64,000 nucleotides of DNA. Source: Aureimonas fodinaquatilis. Its GTDB lineage: Bacteria > Pseudomonadota > Alphaproteobacteria > Rhizobiales > Rhizobiaceae. Of this stretch, positions 53,084 to 64,000 are shown in pieces; the first letter of the stretch is position 1; each line of letters starts with the position of its first letter. The DNA lies in assembly GCF_008369445.1 (NCBI RefSeq), contig NZ_VTWH01000001.1:1116001-1180000 (forward strand), given 5' to 3'. The position numbers and the translations under genes are program-made. Below the pieces are notes generated by a model, which made no database searches, was not told the DNA's origin, and saw only the letters and a list, made by a program, of their open reading frames with translations.

Positions 53084-54112
53084 TCATCGATTGTTGAAGC
53101 GAATTGGCAATGTCAGCGAAACCGGTGCGCCGTCCGGCGGCGCATCATATGGCCCGGCGCGCTGCACCAGTTGCAGCGCCTGCTGGTCCAGAGCCGCATT
53201 GCCGGAAGAGCGGACCAGTCTTGATCCTGTCAGCCTGCCGCCGCCATCCATTGAAAACTGCACGGTGACAACCGCGGCCTGTCTGCCGGAAGCGCGCGTG
53301 CGGCTGGCAGCGCGGTTAACCCGCGCCTGAATGCGTGATTGCCACGTTGCTTTCGCTCTTGGTGAAACCTGCGCACCCTGGCTGGCCTGGCGGTTTGGCT
53401 GGCCCGTGGACGCGACAGAGGGTGCCGGAGCCGCCCTTCGCGATTGCGGAGGTTTGGGGGCTGGAGGCTTCTGCTGGCGTTGAGGTTTTACCGCCTCTTT
53501 TCTGGGTCTTTCGCGTTCCCGCACGGCCTGGCGAACCGGTGGCTCCGGCGGGCGTGGCCTGACTGTGGGCACCGGAACATTCAGCACAGCATCGGAAGTG
53601 GTTTCCATCTGCGGCAGTTCCGGAGGCAAAACGTCCGGCTCCTCAACAGGCTCCGGCTCAACAATTGGTTCTGGTTCGGCCACCGGCTCCGGCTCAACAA
53701 CCGGCTCAGGCTCAACCACTGGCTCAGGTTCAACTACGGGCTCCGGTTCAACAACCGGCTCAGGTTCAACTACGGGCTCTGGTTCAACTACAGGATCGGG
53801 TTCCGGCTGTGGCTCAGGCTCTTCCACCGGAGGCGTTTCAGTGACTGGTTCCGGTTGTGCCTCCGAATGTTCTTCCGCAACTTCCGCATCTGTGGCTGCA
53901 ACAAATTCAGAGGCGGCAGGCGGGGCCATGTCAATCAACACGGCCGCTTCCTGAATGCCGGAAGGCGCCGCTTCGGGCGTACGCATGAACCCATACCAGG
54001 CGGCCGCACTGTGCAGTGTCAAAATGGCTGCCGCCGCTGCTCCCCATCGCAGGGTGGTCAGCCCGACATGTGATTTTTCTATTCGCCGGTAGTGTGGCAA
54101 CCTGACCGTCAT
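53084..54112 (-). CDS. tonB: TonB-type energy transducer with EPVVEP repeats
   Basis: A 342-residue TonB-like protein that carries proton-motive energy from ExbB-ExbD to outer-membrane receptors. A hydrophobic anchor lies at about residues 23-43 ([21 protein letters not shown]). A long proline/glutamate region, about residues 90-165, spans the periplasm and is built of EPVVEP-like hexapeptide steps. A basic linker follows. The C-terminal TonB domain is about 80 residues long ([25 protein letters not shown] onward). Its start overlaps the exbD stop as ATGA. No TonB-dependent receptor is in this window, so the cargo is unknown. Iron is the usual guess. Confidence 0.88.
53640..53820. repeat. 18-bp coding repeat in tonB (EPVVEP units)
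   Basis: Inside tonB an imperfect 18-base unit repeats about seven to eight times and encodes Glu-Pro-Glu-Pro-Val-Val-type hexapeptides. Such tracts change length by slippage, so the periplasmic span of TonB may vary between strains. Confidence 0.7.
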
Positions 54113-55781: not shown

Positions 55782-56738
55782 TTATGAACCGATGTCAGCC
55801 TTGACCGCATCAAGACCAGGCTCGCCGGTAAAGGTTGTCACACCTGCAAGCCAAGGTGTCAAAACATCCGGGCTGGCCGCAAGCCATTCTTTGGCTGCCG
55901 TTTCCGGCTCCTTGCTGTCGTTCAGGATGCCGCCCATGATTTCATTTTCCAGTTCCAGTGAAAATTCCAGATTGGCAAGGAACTGGCCAAGATTGGGACA
56001 CTCGTCTTTCAAGCCTTTGCGGGTGTTTGTGTCCACCGTCGCGCCGCCAAAATCCGCGCCGAACACATCATCGCCGCCAGACAGGTAGCGAAGATCAAAA
56101 TTGGCATTCATCGGATGCGGTTCCCAGCCCAGAAACACAATCGGCTGTTCGCCCCGTGTCTGGCGGGACACCTGCGAAAGCATGCCCTGCTCGGAAGATT
56201 CAACAAGCTCGAAGCCGGAAAGGTCGAACTTGTTATCATTGATCATTTCCAGAATGAGGCGGTTGCCGTCATTGCCGGGTTCAATTCCATAGATACGGTT
56301 GCCCAGCTCATCGCGGAATTTTGCAATGTCCTCAAACGATGTCAGGCCTTTGTCGTAAAGGTAGGCTGGAACTGCCAGCGTATATTTTGCGCCGGTCAGG
56401 TTGGTGCGGATAACCTCGATTGTGCCCTTATCGCGATATGGGGCAATGTCGGCTTCCATTGTTGGCATCCAGTTGCCCAGAAACACATCAATGTCACCAT
56501 TGGCCAGCGAGGTGAATGTAACAGGCAAGGCCAGAATGCTGGTCTGCGGTTCATAGCCGAGGGCTTTGAGAACAATGGAGGCGGTTGCCGTGGTTGCGGT
56601 GATGTCTGTCCAGCCCACATCCGCAAACCGGACCGCCTTGCAGGACTGAGGTTCTGCTGCGACTGCCTGGCCTGAGAAAGCGGCGATTGTAACAATGGCC
56701 GCAAATACCGGCATTTTGAGTTTCAAGGCGAGCGACAT
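55782..56738 (-). CDS. choX: Choline ABC transporter substrate-binding protein ChoX
   Basis: A periplasmic choline-binding protein of the OpuAC/ProX fold, 318 residues. The signal peptide ends at AVAAE (about residue 28). The ligand-binding aromatic residues expected for ChoX are visible: tryptophan in VRFADVGWTDI, GNWMPTMEAD, tyrosine near AKYTLAVPAYLYDKG, and GWEPHPMNANFD. It would deliver choline with high affinity. Unlike the usual choXWV operon, no permease or ATPase gene follows; the next gene downstream is exbB. GAGGGAA precedes the ATG. It is divergent from the betI-betB fusion and probably under BetI control. Confidence 0.9.
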   Translation of the reverse strand: MSLALKLKMPVFAAIVTIAAFSGQAVAAEPQSCKAVRFADVGWTDITATTATASIVLKALGYEPQTSILALPVTFTSLANGDIDVFLGNWMPTMEADIAPYRDKGTIEVIRTNLTGAKYTLAVPAYLYDKGLTSFEDIAKFRDELGNRIYGIEPGNDGNRLILEMINDNKFDLSGFELVESSEQGMLSQVSRQTRGEQPIVFLGWEPHPMNANFDLRYLSGGDDVFGADFGGATVDTNTRKGLKDECPNLGQFLANLEFSLELENEIMGGILNDSKEPETAAKEWLAASPDVLTPWLAGVTTFTGEPGLDAVKADIGS

Positions 56739-56863
56739 AGATTCCCTCTTTTGCTAAAATAACAATCTGAATGGTTCACTAGCTTGTCTTGCCGTAACTG
56801 CACAATGACATGTAAGCGGATATCAAGAAGTCTGGCACGAAGACCAGAAAAGTCAATTGGCTG

Positions 56864-56879
56864 TTGAATGCGCGTTCAA
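56864..56879. promoter_or_regulatory. BetI-like palindrome 1
   Basis: TTGAATGCGCGTTCAA, an inverted repeat TTGAA-N6-TTCAA, lies in the choX/betIB divergent region. It matches the half-site of the second palindrome 97 bases away, so both probably bind the BetI domain encoded next door. Confidence 0.5.
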
Positions 56880-56959
56880 GTTAAATTCTATTGGATATGC
56901 GACATTTATTTGCCAGTATGTGCCGAGTCATATGCTAGTGATCGAAAATCAACCAGTTC

Positions 56960-56977
56960 ATTGAACGCTTGTTCAAT
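56960..56977. promoter_or_regulatory. BetI-like palindrome 2
   Basis: ATTGAACGCTTGTTCAAT: perfect seven-base arms around GCTT, ending 30 bases before the fusion gene's ATG. Position and symmetry fit an autorepressor operator of the TetR type. The TTGAAC half-site resembles that of the first palindrome. Confidence 0.6.
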
Positions 56978-57007: not shown

Positions 57008-59113
57008 ATGAGCAAAGCTGCGCCCGCACCCCGCATTGGAGTCGAAGATGAGCGCCGCCGCCAACTGGTGGATGCCACCGTGGAGTCTATGGCGGAGGTG
57101 GGTTTTGCCGCATCCAGCCTGACCGAAATCGCCGGCAGAGCGGGGTTTGCTGCCAGCCTTGTATCACATTATTTCGGTGATAAGGATGGCCTGCTTGAAG
57201 CAACATTGCGGCATCTGGCCAGCCGTGTTTCCGATGCTGTGCTGTTGCGCCTGCGCGCCGCTGACGGCCCGAGAGAGCGTATACAGGCTATCATTGATGC
57301 CAATCTGGCACCGGAAGAGTTTGACCAGCGCACTGGCAGTGTCTGGCTGGCCTTCTGGGGGCAGGTCCTGCATTCCGACCGGTTGAGGCGGGTTCAGCGT
57401 GTTTACCAGCAGCGCATGCTTTCCAATCTTCGTCATGACCTGCGGGCGCTGGTATCGACTGAGGATGCACCGCGCATCGCTTTGGCCATTGCCGCGGTGA
57501 TCGACGGGTTGTGGTTGCGTTCCACCCTTTCGCAAACAGTGGAAACCGACAGCGAAGCTGCGCGCAGCATGGCCAGCGAATTTGTGGACCGGGAAATCGC
57601 CGCCGCGCGCCCGGCTGCGCCGAAGTCACTGCCGCGCCCGGCCGTTATTTCCTCCGCGCCGGTGGCGGGTTGCTATATCGACGGACACCTGGTGACCGAC
57701 ATTCGGGGCCCGGCTTTTGCCGACATCAATCCGGCAACAGGCGAGGTTTTGGCGCAGGTGCCAATTGCCGGTGCAAACGAGGTGGACCGTGCGGTGCAGT
57801 CTGCCAAAAAGGGCCAGGCTGTCTGGGCGGCAATGACCGGTGCAGAGCGTGGCCGCATCATGCAGCGAGCCGTGGCCTTGCTGCGCGAAGAAAATGATGA
57901 GTTGGCCGAGCTGGAAACCCGTGACACCGGCAAGCCGGTGCAGGAAACACGCGTTGTGGACATTGCCTCCGGCGCGGATTGTCTGGAATATTTTGCCGGA
58001 CTGGCGGCGGGACTGGTTGGCGAGCATGTGGATCTTGGTCCGCAGGCGTTTGGCTATACAAGGCGGGAGCCGTTGGGCATTGTTGCCGGCATTGGCGCCT
58101 GGAATTATCCGTTGCAGATTGCTGCGTGGAAAGCCGCCCCTGCGCTGGCGGCCGGCAATGCCATGATTTTCAAACCAGCGGAGCTGAGCCCGCTGTCGGC
58201 GCTGAAACTGGCGGAAATTTTCACCCGCGCCGGAATGCCGAACGGCGTTTTCAATGTGGTGCAGGGCGATGGCTCTACCGGGCAATTGCTGTCTCGCCAC
58301 CCCGACATTGCCAAAATTTCGCTGACGGGTGAGGTTGGCACCGGCAAACGTGTGCTGGCCGATGCTGCCAACACCATGAAGCAGGTGACATTGGAGCTTG
58401 GCGGCAAATCACCATTGGTGATTTTTGATGATTGCGATCTTGATGATGCGGTTTCCGCGGCTCTTCTGGCGAACTTCTATTCCGCCGGCGAGGTCTGTTC
58501 CAACGGCACCCGTGTGTTTGTGCAACAGGGGCTGCATGAGCGGTTTGTTGAACGATTGGTTGAACGCACGGCCCGCATGATTGTTGGCGATCCGCTGGAT
58601 CCGGCGACACAGGTTGGCGCGCTGATTTCTGAAAAGCACATGCAGAAGGTGCTTTCCTACATTGAAGTTGGTCGGCGCGAGGGTGCGCGGCTGGTCAGTG
58701 GCGGTCACCGGGTAACAGATGGAGCACTGGCACAGGGTGCCTTTGTTGCCCCAACGGTGTTTGATGCCTGCCGCGATGATATGCGCATTGCCACAGAGGA
58801 AATCTTCGGCCCAGTCATGTCGGTTCTGACCTTCCGCGACGAAGACGAGGTTGTAAGCCGCGCCAATGCAACCGAATTTGGTTTGGCCGCTGGCGTCTTC
58901 ACCCGCGATCTGGCGCGCGGGCACCGGGTTATTGCACGCCTGGATGCCGGCACAACCTGGATCAACCATTACAATCTAACGCCGATCGAGCTGCCATTTG
59001 GCGGAGTGAAGCGATCCGGGCTTGGGCGTGAAAATGGCCGCGCCGCTCTGGAGGCGCATACACGCGTCAAGAGCGTCTACGTCAATCTGGGGCCGGTGGA
59101 AGCTCCCTACTGA
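57008..59113 (+). CDS. betB: BetI-BetB fusion: TetR-type choline-responsive repressor joined to betaine aldehyde dehydrogenase
   Basis: One uninterrupted 701-residue frame that joins two proteins normally made separately. Residues ~1-204 match full-length BetI: the HTH region ([21 protein letters not shown]) and the ligand domain with [17 protein letters not shown] and [16 protein letters not shown] short linker, about 205-218, is rich in proline and alanine. From ~218 to the end it is BetB, which oxidises betaine aldehyde to glycine betaine: [38 protein letters not shown], the general-base glutamate in LELGGKSP (about 462), the nucleophile in SAGEVCSNG (about 496) and [12 protein letters not shown]. 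No stop or likely internal start lies in the linker. GAAGGA precedes the ATG. betA follows. Confidence 0.92.
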
Positions 59114-59213: not shown

Positions 59214-60875
59214 ATGCACGAACAGCGGTTTGATTATGTCATTATTGGTGCGGGTTCGGCCGGTTCGGTGCTGGCTTCCCGCCTGAGCGAGGACAAGTCA
59301 AACCGGGTGCTTGTGCTGGAATATGGCGGCTCTGACCGGTCCATGCTGATCCAGATGCCCAGCGCGCTTTCCATTCCCATGAACATGAAAAAGTACAATT
59401 GGGGTTATGAAAGCCTGCCGGAGCCCCATTTGAACAATCGGCGCATGAACCTGCCGCGCGGCAAGGTGCTGGGCGGGTCTTCGTCCATCAATGGCATGGT
59501 GTATGTGCGCGGCGCGCCGCAGGATTTCGATGGCTGGGAAAAGCTGGGTGCGCGGGGTTGGTCCTATGCCGATGTGCTGCCGTATTTTCGCAAGGCAGAG
59601 AGCAGGCAGAGCGGTGGTGACGACTATCGCGGGTCGGAAGGCGCATTGCACACGCGCTATGGTGAACTGACAAACCCGCTGTACCAAACCTTCATCGAAG
59701 CCGGGCGGCAGGCGGGTTATGATGTCACCGATGATTACAATGGCGAACATTTTGAAGGCTTCGGCCGACTGGACATGACCGTGCATAATGGTCGGCGCTG
59801 GTCTGCGGCAAATGCCTATCTGCACCCGGCAATGGAACGCGCCAATCTGACCGTGCAGTTGCATGCGCTGGTTGAGCGGATTGTTTTTGACGGGCGGCGT
59901 GCCACGGGTGTGGAGTTTCTGCTGAATGGTGAGCGGCAGGTGGTTCACGCCAGCCGGGAGGTTATTCTGTCCGCCGGTTCCATCAATTCGCCCAAGCTTC
60001 TGAAGCTTTCAGGCATTGGCGGTGGTGCAGAACTGCAAGGCCATGGCATTGACGTCATTGCCGATCGACCCGGTGTCGGGACAAATTTGCAGGACCATCT
60101 GGAGTTTTACTTTCAACTTGCCTGCACCCAGCCGCTGACCCTGTACTCCGCGCAAAGTCTGGTGGCGAAGGGGCGCATCGGGGCGCAGTGGCTGTTGATG
60201 AAAAACGGCCTCGGGTCCACCAATCATTTCGAGGCTGGCGGCTTTATCCGCTCGCGTCCCGGTGTTGAATATGCCGATATTCAGTTTCACTTTCTGCCGT
60301 TGGCGGTGACGTATGATGGCAAGGGGCTGGCGTCCGAGCATGGTTTTCAGGCGCATGTCGGCCCGATGCGCTCCAGGTCGCGCGGGCAGGTGCGGCTGGC
60401 ATCAGCAGACCCGAGGGCTGCGCCGCTGGTGCAGTTCAACTATATGAGCCACCCGGAAGACTGGGAAGAAATGCGCGCCTGTGTGCGGCTGACGCGGGAA
60501 ATTTTTGCGCAAGCGGCATTTGACCCCTATCGCGGACGGGAGATTCAGCCTGGTGCCGATGTGCAGAGCGATGAGCAGATAGACGCCTTTGTGCGTGAAC
60601 ATGTGGAAAGCGCCTTCCACCCGTCCTGCAGCAACAGAATGGGGCAGGCGGATGACGCGTTGAGCGTTGTGGATGAAGAGACGCGGCTGATCGGGGTGGA
60701 TGGTCTGCGCGTTGTCGATTCATCGATTATGCCTGCAATTACCACCGGCAATTTGAATGCTCCGACAATTATGCTGGCGGAGAAAGCGGCAGACCATATT
60801 CTGGGCAGGCCCATGCTGCCAGCGGTGCCGGTGAAGTACCACCGGCCCGAAAACTGGCAGACAGCGCAGCGTTAA
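59214..60875 (+). CDS. betA: Choline dehydrogenase
   Basis: A GMC-family flavoprotein of 553 residues that oxidises choline to betaine aldehyde, usually at the inner membrane. The FAD motif is [19 protein letters not shown] at residues 8-26, the GMC signature 1 is [20 protein letters not shown] near 83-102, and signature 2 is [19 protein letters not shown] near 255. The catalytic histidine is in [13 protein letters not shown], and the C-terminal [28 protein letters not shown] follows. It lies 100 bases after betIB, with a repeat and a 33-bp palindrome in between. Its stop codon overlaps that of the convergent etfB gene. Confidence 0.94.
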
Positions 60876-61615
60876 CCCAGGCCAAGCTTGCGCAAATGCG
60901 CCAGAATGGCCCTGGCAGCGTGTTCTGCCTCAGGGGCAATCAGCAGTTCTCCATCACCGCTTGCCGCTTCCGTGGCGGCCTTCAAGCGCTCTGCCGCGCT
61001 GCCGCCCAGAGCGGTATTGCGCATCAATCTGGGGCGGGGGCGCAACGGCCGCTCGACAAGCTCCTGCTGCCAATCTGGTCCATCCGCCGCAAGTTCAGAA
61101 ATGACGCCGCGGCGCTGGCGGGCAAATGCGAATGGCATTGCAGCCAGGGCAGAAGAATGCACCGTCACCAGCAACGGCCCCGTCTGGTGTATGCGGCGGC
61201 GCTGGCCTTTGCCAAGCGCCTGATCCAGAACAAACGCATCACCATCCACGCTGATGGCAGCAATGTTGGCCAGGACCGGCCAACCCATGGCTTGCGCCAG
61301 AAGATAGGGAAGCATGCCGGTTGCATCACGGCCACTGCGCCCGCCCGCCAGAACCAGCGCCGGCTTGATGTCGTTCAATCTGGCCTGCAGGGCAGGCAAT
61401 ACATCCAGACTGTCCGGAATTGCCAGGTGCTCAATCTGCGTAAGCCCATGGCCCAGTGCTGGCGCGACCGCCTGAAGATCATTTCCAGCATAAAGGCCTA
61501 GTGTTTCAGCCTGTAGCGCGTTTGCCAGCGCAATGGCCTGCAACTCTTCCTGCTGTGGTTGCGGGTTGCCGGTTTCCGGGTGGCGTGCGGCGGACAGAAG
61601 AACAACCGCCTTCAT
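60872..61615 (-). CDS. Electron transfer flavoprotein beta subunit (methylated-glycine catabolism type)
   Basis: A 247-residue ETF beta-like protein. It starts [29 protein letters not shown] and has [27 protein letters not shown]-like text, the adenine-nucleotide domain signature DxxGRDATG found in ETF/FixA proteins, and [13 protein letters not shown]. This divergent branch goes with DgcB-type dehydrogenases rather than with fatty-acid oxidation. The ATG overlaps the etfA stop as ATGA, so the two are coupled. It probably accepts electrons from a dimethylglycine or sarcosine dehydrogenase. Confidence 0.85.
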
Positions 61616-62673
61616 GCATCTTCCTCCGCCAACAGCGACAGCAGCGCAACCATGATGGGGTGTGCATCGCCGACAATGGCCAGATCAGCCCGGGCTATCA
61701 TGGCGGCATGCAGATCCGTGTTGACTGCGATAACGTGCTGGCAATCCGCAATGCCTTGCAGATGCTGCGGAGCGCCAGCAATACCAAGGGCAAGGTAGCA
61801 CCCGGCTGCAAGCACAGTGCCGGATGCGCCCACCTGCGCCTCACGCGGCATGAGCCCGGCATCGCAGACAACGCGGCTGGCACCGGGCGTTGCCTTAAGG
61901 GCAGCGGCAAGCTGGCGAAACAGGTCAAAATCCACAATGCCATTGCCGGCAGATGCTACGAAATCTGCCTCCGTCAACGGCAATTGCCCGGTGTCCAGAG
62001 GCAGCATCTCTGCCTGCCATTCGCTGCAGGTTGAAGTCGGGGCGGGCAATGGTCGCGCCTCACGCTGGTCTGCGGCATAGGGCGGCACCATATCTGGCGC
62101 GATTGTGATTATGGCGGGCGGCGTCTGTGCAACTTGTTCAACTCTTTGAGCAGGCAGCCCGCGTACCAGCCCGCGCTCGCTGACTTGCTCGGCATTGGCG
62201 AAAAACGGCAGGTTCAACGCAACGGCAAGGCGGCGGGCAAGGTCGCCGCCGTCAAGCGTTTCCGCAACAATGATATGGCGCGGCTCTAAGGTTCTGATGG
62301 CCGCAATCAGGCTTTCAGCGCGGGCTTGCGGGTGTATGTCAGGCGGCAAGACGCAAACGCGGTCTGCCCCGGCGGCCCCCGCCCCGTCAACCGGCCTCTC
62401 GGCAATCAGAACGACTCCGCCCGATTTGCCAGCGAGAGCGCGTGCCGCGCCCAGCACCTGCCGGTCAACCGGGTTCAGGTCGCTGATGCCTCTGTCTGCC
62501 ACGGCAACCACCCAGAATTCCGGATTCTCAACAATGATTGCCAGTTGCTGCCGTTTTGCTGTTTCAACGGGTTGGAATCCAGCGGTCGATGTGCGGTCAA
62601 AACGCGGGCGTGCGTCGCCGGCAACCCGCATAGCTTCCCGCGCCAGACGCGGGTCCCTGCGCGGGCGGCTCAT
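61612..62673 (-). CDS. Electron transfer flavoprotein alpha subunit (methylated-glycine catabolism type)
   Basis: A 353-residue ETF alpha-like protein. The N-terminal ~240 residues form the nucleotide-fold domain (LAIIVENPEFWVVAVADRG and HIIVAETLDGGDLARRLAVALNLP). The C-terminal FAD domain shows FVASAGNGIVDFDLFRQLA, AGLMPREAQVGASGTVLAAGCYLALGIAGAPQHL and DLAIVGDAHPIMVALLSLL, the standard FAD-binding order. It should shuttle electrons with its beta partner encoded downstream. Its start overlaps the end of the DgcB-like gene as ATGA, so all three are one transcription unit. Confidence 0.87.
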   Translation of the reverse strand: MSRPRRDPRLAREAMRVAGDARPRFDRTSTAGFQPVETAKRQQLAIIVENPEFWVVAVADRGISDLNPVDRQVLGAARALAGKSGGVVLIAERPVDGAGAAGADRVCVLPPDIHPQARAESLIAAIRTLEPRHIIVAETLDGGDLARRLAVALNLPFFANAEQVSERGLVRGLPAQRVEQVAQTPPAIITIAPDMVPPYAADQREARPLPAPTSTCSEWQAEMLPLDTGQLPLTEADFVASAGNGIVDFDLFRQLAAALKATPGASRVVCDAGLMPREAQVGASGTVLAAGCYLALGIAGAPQHLQGIADCQHVIAVNTDLHAAMIARADLAIVGDAHPIMVALLSLLAEEDA

Positions 62674-64000
62674 GCTGCCACCGGCGTTTTCAGCGGTTGC
62701 GTTTCCACCGCGCGCAAAACCAGTTCTGCAAGGTCCATGACATCGGGGCGCTCACCAACAACGCCTTCCAGCATGGCGGTGCATTGCGGGCAAGCCACGG
62801 CCAGAAGGGTCGCACCCGTGGCTTTTGCCTCATTCATGCGAATATCGGGAATGCGCCTTTCGCCCGCAATGTCGCTCAGCGCTGCGCCACCGCCGCCGCC
62901 GCAGCAACGCGACCGCATGGCATGTCGCGGCATTTCCCTGACGTCCAGCCCCAGCCGCGCCAGAAGTTGGCGCGGGGCAGCAACCTCGCCATTGTACCGG
63001 CCCAGATAGCATGGGTCATGGTAGGTTGCGGTTTGTGCGGGCAGGTTTTGCACCGTCATGCGCCCGTCTGCTGCCAGCTCTTCCAGAAACTGGCTGTGAT
63101 GGGTTACCTGATAAATGCCGCCCAGCGCTGGATATTCATTGCGCAAGACATGCAGAGCGTGCGGGTCGGCGGTGACAATACGGTTGAACTGATATTGCGC
63201 AAGAGTTGCAATATTGGCAGCTGCGAGGCGTTGAAAACCAGCCTCGTCACCCAGGCGACGGGCAATGTCGCCGCAATCGCGCTCCTGTGGCCCCAGCACT
63301 GCAAAATCGACCCTTGCATGCTGCAAAAGCCGCACCAGCGCACGCAATGTGCGGCCATAGCGCAGGTCGTATGCGCCTTCACCCAGCCACAACAGAACAT
63401 CTGCCCGGCCTTTGGTGGTCATCAGCGGCAGTTCCAGCCCGGCGGCAAAGTCCAGCCGCGAAGCCAGTGGCCGCCCTCCCGGTTCATCTGCCTGCCGCAG
63501 AGCGGCAAGCGCGGTTTCAGCTTTTGCCGGCAGCGCACCCAGTTCCATGGTTTGGAACCGGCGAAGATCCACCACCGCGTCCACATGCTCAATCATCATC
63601 GGGCATTCTTCAACGCAGGCGCGGCAGGTGGTGCAGGACCACAATGTGTCGGGATGAATGGCGGCATCCGTGCCGATGATCGGCGCATTCTCGTCATGCG
63701 CCATGGCGCGGGCCAGATCGGCGATGAGGTGCCGGGGGCTGAGCGGCTGGCCAGCGGCAAAGGCAGGACATGCGCTTTCGCACCGCCCGCATTGCACGCA
63801 TGCGTCAAAGGAAAGCAGCCGGTTCCAGCTGAAGTCCGCCGGGGTTTCAACCCCGAGCTTTTCCGCGTCAAGATTTGTTGGGAGCAGATTGCTGGCGAGA
63901 TGACCGGAAAAGCGCGTGGGCCGAGGATGTGCCGCCAGATGCAAAGCGCCAGCCAGAGCATGGCGCATCGGCCCATTGCCCGCCTGCCATGCCAGTGCAA
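62670..64000 (-). CDS. DgcB-like iron-sulphur protein of dimethylglycine/betaine catabolism (partial, runs off the right edge)
   Basis: The last ~443 residues of a 4Fe-4S (Fe-S)-binding oxidoreductase; the reading frame is open to the end of the window, so the N-terminus, normally a membrane domain (DUF3483 type), is missing. Two ferredoxin-like cysteine clusters are visible: CVQCGRCESACP and CTTCRACVEECP. The C-terminal CCG domain has HDPCYLGRYN, RSRCCGGGGGAA and VACPQC. Related DgcB proteins work with DgcA in demethylating dimethylglycine. The immediate etfA and etfB neighbours and the bet genes support a role in betaine breakdown. The ATG at 63968 is internal, not the true start. Confidence 0.83.
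   Translation of the reverse strand, partial: ALAWQAGNGPMRHALAGALHLAAHPRPTRFSGHLASNLLPTNLDAEKLGVETPADFSWNRLLSFDACVQCGRCESACPAFAAGQPLSPRHLIADLARAMAHDENAPIIGTDAAIHPDTLWSCTTCRACVEECPMMIEHVDAVVDLRRFQTMELGALPAKAETALAALRQADEPGGRPLASRLDFAAGLELPLMTTKGRADVLLWLGEGAYDLRYGRTLRALVRLLQHARVDFAVLGPQERDCGDIARRLGDEAGFQRLAAANIATLAQYQFNRIVTADPHALHVLRNEYPALGGIYQVTHHSQFLEELAADGRMTVQNLPAQTATYHDPCYLGRYNGEVAAPRQLLARLGLDVREMPRHAMRSRCCGGGGGAALSDIAGERRIPDIRMNEAKATGATLLAVACPQCTAMLEGVVGERPDVMDLAELVLRAVETQPLKTPVAA

Follow-up and report, generated by a model that had tools for sequence, protein, structure and literature searches.

A BetI-BetB fusion gene of Aureimonas fodinaquatilis and its relatives: a probable repressor-enzyme acting on its own choline divergon

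In the 64,000-nucleotide stretch of the Aureimonas fodinaquatilis genome analyzed here (the window), a complete BetI and a complete betaine aldehyde dehydrogenase (BetB) are joined in one protein, a putative repressor-enzyme built from two known families. The earlier note on this DNA had reported such a fusion, and the analysis agreed: an open reading frame check of the window gave a single frame from ATG to TGA without an internal stop codon, both domains were complete, and the curated cut-offs were passed. The protein is probably a bifunctional repressor-enzyme that makes expression of its own divergon depend on choline; dehydrogenase activity, DNA binding, and a response to choline are predicted from sequence. 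Coordinates are collected in the table.

Table. Features of the fused gene and its surroundings, in window positions
Feature	Coordinates	Strand	Basis or remark
choX, choline ABC transporter substrate-binding protein, divergent	55782..56738	-	TIGR03414, 460.2 bits vs 379.05
BetI-type box 2, GTTGAATGCGCGTTCAAG	56863..56880		97 bp from box 1, start to start
BetI-type box 1, ATTGAACGCTTGTTCAAT	56960..56977		30 bp to ATG; palindrome scan
Fused gene betI-betB	57008..59113	+	single open frame, 701 aa; domain models
TetR_N helix-turn-helix of the BetI half, residues 20-65	57065..57202	+	Pfam PF00440, 45.8 bits vs 24
TetR_C_6, BetI-type ligand/dimerisation domain, residues 88-197	57269..57598	+	Pfam PF13977, 101.2 bits vs 27
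Linker, about residues 198-221	57599..57670	+	low model confidence at 206-214; variable among relatives
Betaine aldehyde dehydrogenase half, residues 218-701	57659..59110	+	two NCBIfam equivalogs
Glu463 codon	58394..58396	+	invariant column, 52 fused proteins
Cys497 codon	58496..58498	+	invariant column, 52 fused proteins
betA, choline dehydrogenase	59214..60875	+	TIGR01810, 837.6 bits vs 732.1

The BetB half exceeded the cut-offs of NF009725 (799 bits versus 593) and TIGR01804 (677.5 versus 668.6), with an Aldedh domain above the Pfam cut-off at residues 237 to 690, and the BetI half alone passed the NCBIfam BetI equivalog TIGR03384 (218.5 bits versus 201.3), as did the BetI halves of four further fused proteins (205.7 to 216.1 bits). 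Pfam gave TetR_N, TetR_C_6, and Aldedh only, and no PRODH domain was found in the fused protein. The BetI half is not a stand-alone repressor of about 190 to 200 residues, as the frame runs on into BetB. In the alignment of 52 fused proteins, Asn366 and Lys389 were invariant, like Glu463 and Cys497; residues at these four positions have catalytic roles in the aldehyde dehydrogenase (ALDH) family. Six residues of the BetI half, W113, F116, W117, D166, W169, and R171, were conserved in at least 90% of the proteins, in fused BetI and in BetI from split loci (separate betI and betB) alike. Positions 51, 100, 104, and 129 of BetI, among others, differed between the fused and split groups. The predicted structure (mean pLDDT, 81.4; pTM, 0.64) consisted of a helical part up to residue 199 followed by the ALDH part, with low confidence at residues 206 to 214, poor modeling of the last ~50 residues, and an unreliable placing of the BetI part relative to the ALDH part. 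An alternative start, TTG at 56969, would add 13 residues; the ATG at 57008 is the likelier start of the fused gene, because the TTG lies inside an operator-like box. Elsewhere in the same genome, aldehyde dehydrogenase matches all had at most 43% identity, and further matches to the BetI half appeared only at E values of 7.7e-6 and 1.1e-4.

The fusion was found in related genomes, where the earlier note had proposed that it be sought: the fused frame was present in 20 of the 21 genomes of the genus, including that of A. fodinaquatilis, and 120 nonredundant loci with adjacent BetI and BetB comprised 87 fused in one frame and 33 split by a stop codon or frame change, a ratio that is not a natural frequency, since the fused protein served as the search query and distant split loci were therefore under-sampled. 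Excluded from the 120 were loci without a BetI match at an E value of 1e-10, BetB matches below 500 bits, 17 duplicates, and L132, in which the halves lie on opposite strands. All 12 Paraburkholderia loci fell into the split group. The one genome of the genus without the fused frame, G018, has a different BetB-like gene (C1:243971-245488; 57% identity) with a TGA within the matched stretch. In 18 of the 20 fused genomes of the genus, the BetI half had no other match at an E value of ≤1e-8; the second matches in the remaining two had 28% identity (G005) and 40% identity over 63 residues (G012).

Beyond the genus, the distribution of the fusion was patchy. Among the best 80 of 308 loci, the titled genome records included Aureimonas, Ancylobacter, Methylobrevis, Faunimonas, Bosea, Rhodomicrobium, Acidisoma, Caulobacterales, Sphingomonadaceae, and Paraburkholderia, together with bins labeled Gammaproteobacteria or Steroidobacteraceae. 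None of the 40 genomes sampled elsewhere in the family and order, all from other genera, had the fused frame. Of the 385 genomes sampled from the class, 3 gave open full-length matches (E value, ≤1e-200), as did 3 of the 398 sampled from the phylum (≤1e-220), the A. fodinaquatilis genome counted in both, and 14 of the 397 sampled from the order (≤1e-230; the same genome and 13 others); the samples overlap, and thresholds this strict would miss diverged fusions. A complete plasmid of Komagataeibacter saccharivorans carries a fused gene (L156, 6001-8061) that is annotated just as betB. This gene is diverged (BetI half, ~40% identical) and has a TonB-dependent receptor gene in the divergent position. 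Another fused locus, L081 of Rhodomicrobium sp. R_RK_3, contains choX and betA, although a survey lists betaine synthesis genes as missing from freshwater Rhizobiales, Rhodomicrobium included (PMC7824335). A sequencing or assembly error, which no finding favored and for which the chance is negligible, would have had to produce the same open frame in 87 nonredundant loci, the complete K. saccharivorans plasmid among them, and it was ruled out by the 86 fused loci other than that of the window. These loci also overturn the earlier note's treatment of the fusion as a possibly isolated case in need of a resequenced linker, and the spread points to an old conserved architecture held in many lineages rather than to a sequencing error. 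The openness of the linker in itself is no separate evidence, as an open frame was the criterion that defined the 87.

The neighboring genes are those of choline metabolism. In the window, the divergent choX lies to the left of the fused gene and betA to the right; betA is downstream in 86 of the 87 fused loci, and the remaining one, L109, ends within the betB gene. Of the 86 fused loci whose upstream sequence was long enough, 65 had a divergent choX within 800 bp and 21 did not. Past betA, on the minus strand (60872-63968), follow genes for ETF-like, iron-sulphur, old-yellow-enzyme-like, GbdR-like, and GbcA/GbcB-like proteins, none of the ETF-, GbdR-, GbcA-, and GbcB-like members reaching a curated cut-off; the same gene run was found at L162 (2171-9468, minus strand). 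The run probably serves the breakdown of glycine betaine and dimethylglycine, and the whole setting looks like choline breakdown via glycine betaine. A TonB-family protein with long Pro-Glu-Pro-Val repeats is encoded at 53084-54112 (minus strand), near exbD, exbB, and choX.

Phylogenetic trees, which were quick searches with SH-aLRT support only, point to a single origin of the fusion among the sampled loci and to its retention since. In the BetI-half tree, the 87 fused rows formed one clade (SH-aLRT, 98) that covered taxa labeled as two classes and contained no split row, the nearest split rows being L120 and L131. The first BetB tree grouped 85 of the 87 fused rows in a clade, with the long-branched L098 and L156 outside; a tree constrained to hold all 87 together had a likelihood above that of the free quick search (p-AU, 0.984). 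The fused clade also contained the BetB rows L125 and L134, which had no adjacent betI and may represent losses of the repressor half. Both halves are under strong purifying selection, and the repressor part is not decaying: dN/dS was 0.025 to 0.128 for the BetI half and 0.033 to 0.109 for the BetB half in 17 hand-chosen pairs, some of which share a row.

The linker is the part of the protein that varies, in both length and sequence, across relatives. In the window, no ATG was found in the linker, and none of its GTG and TTG codons was preceded by a Shine-Dalgarno (SD)-like sequence. An internal ATG start for free BetB in the window was therefore ruled out, and efficient internal initiation, which the earlier note had named as a possible source of free BetB that would speak against the fusion, is unlikely there. 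Among the 87 fused genes, 30 had an ATG within the linker, with an SD-like sequence before it in 7 of those, and some relatives may also make free BetB from such starts. An in-frame linker ATG was kept in L017, L042, L050 to L053, L055 to L060, L102, and L103, whose bacteria may make both the fused protein and free BetB. In most Ancylobacter loci, the ATG lies near the presumed former BetB start, a position that agrees with an origin of the fusion through loss of the betI stop codon. The free variation of the linker, the Ancylobacter ATG, and the two BetB rows lacking an adjacent betI are also what would be expected if the stop codon had been lost by chance and the loss were neutral and tolerated, with the halves acting as if separate. 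This account is unlikely, given that no split locus appeared inside the BetI clade of 87 fused rows spanning two labeled classes; re-split close relatives would have shown up, because the fused protein was the query.

Both boxes in the table are palindromes in the region that separates choX from the fused gene. Their core pattern, with at most one mismatch, was expected 0.14 times in the window and was observed twice, and 1 of 100 shuffles gave two. Genome-wide, the strict pattern occurred in three places; the third (G000 C6:19813) was rejected as a box, being probably a chance match inside what looked by eye like a substrate-binding-protein-like frame. An upstream BetI-type box was found in all 86 testable fused loci (each with P ≤ 0.05 against 40 shuffles), the upstream DNA of L083 being too short, and the identical scan gave one in 29 of the 33 split loci at P ≤ 0.05. 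The first scan used a consensus derived from the window, which favors symmetric boxes, and the comparison was repeated with the middle left free and with three more matrices, one of them from split loci thinned of Paraburkholderia. With the middle free, position 6 was T in 31 of the 33 split loci, whereas in the 86 fused loci it was A in 51 and T in 22; the split-locus box is different and asymmetric, and fused-locus boxes are mostly symmetric. A candidate promoter at box 1 read by eye (TTGAAC, 17 bp, TATTCT) was not returned by a promoter scan requiring 9 of 12 matches and was discarded. According to the accessible part of one report, BetI of Ruegeria pomeroyi protects the palindrome ATTGACG-CGTCAAT, in a region spanning the -35 box (PMC12442346).

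A second box was present in 79 of the 86 fused loci versus 1 of the 33 split loci, in 80 of 86 fused loci when the region was extended slightly and a score cut-off was applied, and in 77 to 79 of 86 versus 2 to 3 of 33 with the three other matrices. Among loci with a divergent choX, the counts were 65 of 65 fused versus 1 of 13 split, for which the Fisher value of 3e-13 is an overstatement, since the fusion arose once; in a stricter region, the fused count was 64 of 65, the second box of L102 falling outside. With a single origin, the two-box pattern likewise counts as one event and not as repeated evolution. The six fused loci with one box (of 86) were five from Caulobacterales and L099. L127, the only split locus with two boxes in every scan, has them 108 and 88 bp before betI, 20 bp apart, and it is the only one among the 13 split loci with choX; L149, also split with choX, gave a weak second-box pass in one matrix run.

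The box-to-box spacing was the most conserved distance across tree-independent sister pairs. In 28 such choX pairs, many of them close relatives, a change of at most 2 bp was seen for the box-to-box distance in 19, for box 1 to the start codon in 14, and for box 2 to choX in 8; when only the 16 pairs separated by ≥0.15 substitutions per site are considered, the numbers are 8, 3, and 1. Over all sister pairs, the box spacing stayed within 2 bp in 24 of 36, a count of 24 of 35 before inclusion of the pair L086/L079, which differs by 100 bp and lies outside the 28 choX pairs. Helical phasing of the spacing over all loci was not significant (P = 0.33; 44 distinct distances), and global phasing was dropped as support for a DNA loop. 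In the sister jumps, phasing was weak, with uncorrected P values of 0.43, 0.07, and 0.026 for periods of 10.5, 11, and 11.3, from 10 changed pairs of 36 and with two jumps of ≥60 bp omitted.

Two readings of the paired boxes, both compatible with the repressor-enzyme described above, were weighed. The simpler assigns one box to each promoter, that of betIB and that of the divergent choline or betaine gene, the fusion adding nothing to DNA binding. The frames beside one-box fused loci appear by eye to be unrelated to choline, and choline-like divergent frames occur at two-box loci without choX, namely, an ABC ATPase (L069 and L092), an oxidoreductase (L075), and an MttB-like protein (L090), as judged by eye for some of the 15 such loci, of which L042 lies at a contig edge. 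However, of the 13 split loci that also have choX in the divergent position, 12 carry one box, and the spacing between boxes is conserved even where the distances to both genes have changed, which this reading does not require. We give it an even chance and judge it more likely than bridging by the enzyme oligomer.

The bridging alternative is a particular form of the repressor-enzyme reading. BetB is tetrameric in other bacteria, and a BetB oligomer with two BetI dimers could hold both boxes and loop the DNA over the divergent promoters; the fusion would have been kept since it makes BetI bivalent. The near confinement of the second box to fused loci (77 to 80 of 86, against 1 to 3 of 33 split loci), its persistence in fused loci when the divergent choX is the same, and the conserved spacing in 19 of 28 pairs, which exceeds that of the distances to the genes, are all in its favor, and ALDH1L1 provides a precedent for a tetrameric ALDH whose N-terminal domain is mobile, as stated in the available portion of the source (PMC8748788). 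Against it stand the absence of significant helical phasing overall and its weakness in the sister jumps, the co-occurrence of fusion and two boxes as one evolutionary event, and the six one-box fused loci. Bridging is an attractive but tentative proposal, and its specific version, a BetB tetramer presenting two BetI dimers that clamp both boxes in a loop over both promoters that opens upon choline, is a shade more doubtful still.

Under the favored explanation of a repressor-enzyme acting on its own divergon, the BetI half would bind the palindromes between choX and betIB and, when bound, would repress the operon that encodes it (betIB-betA) and probably also the divergent gene for choline uptake. 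Choline binding to the BetI ligand domain would end repression, as with BetI of other bacteria, and the BetB half, invariably coproduced with the BetI half, would oxidize betaine aldehyde to glycine betaine. The repressor-to-enzyme ratio would be one to one, with more enzyme meaning more repressor, so that the operon would be self-limiting and a quick shut-off could be expected once choline was gone. The earlier note's view that the enzyme is carried by its own regulator gained support from the conservation of the protein, the purifying selection on both halves, and the BetI-type boxes; a coupling of enzyme oligomerization to DNA binding, which it had added, is plausible. Counting against the favored explanation, the patchy spread, the G018 genome without the fusion, and L125 and L134 without betI suggest that loss of the fusion may be tolerated; the linker ATGs from which some relatives may make free BetB and the below-cut-off scores of the breakdown genes also weigh against it.

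The arrangement joins a full TetR-family sensor, not a mere DNA-binding module, to an enzyme of its own pathway, and it persists in several alphaproteobacterial orders as well as in bins labeled Gammaproteobacteria. It offers a natural test of equal repressor and enzyme numbers, and the two-box arrangement offers one of whether an enzyme assembly can build a bivalent repressor. Furthermore, BetI can hide behind the annotation betB for the whole protein, as in one annotated example. No BetI-BetB fusion was described among the matches listed in full-text searches of the open-licence literature, and descriptions may exist elsewhere; nor was one described in the available parts of PMC12442346, PMC7824335, PMC4744692, PMC5882156, and PMC4921024.

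The separate BetI and BetB of Escherichia coli, Sinorhizobium, and R. pomeroyi resemble the fused system in the curated models passed, choX, betA, and BetI-type palindromes, and they differ from it in that here there is one polypeptide. Relative to the split loci sampled, fused loci mostly have two, mainly symmetric boxes, whereas split loci have one asymmetric box. Two further proteins are comparable in part. The shikimate-kinase-like part of BzdR is a sensor, and the fused protein, unlike BzdR, retains the catalytic residues of its enzyme. An enzyme and a DNA-binding part gave rise to the regulator BzdR, according to the accessible text (PMC3602430), and 10-formyltetrahydrofolate dehydrogenase (ALDH1L1) bears its mobile N-terminal domains on a tetrameric aldehyde dehydrogenase (PMC8748788, seen in part). 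Unlike those of the fused protein, the N-terminal parts of ALDH1L1 are catalytic and carrier domains and do not bind DNA.

Few enzymes are known to repress their own genes, and PutA is the textbook case. PutA has a ribbon-helix-helix domain, senses its substrate through the enzyme, and controls the divergent transporter gene putP. Unlike PutA, the fused protein contains a complete TetR-family repressor with a ligand domain of its own and has no PRODH domain; like PutA, it has a DNA-binding domain and an ALDH in one chain, and putative operator-like sites lie at its own promoter region beside the divergent uptake gene choX. In the available part of the source, PutA is described as a catabolic enzyme whose single chain carries both an aldehyde dehydrogenase and a DNA-binding domain and which represses the proline utilization genes, including its own (PMC9132996). 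By this analogy, PutA is the closest known system in working principle, and the fused gene is best read as its choline counterpart.
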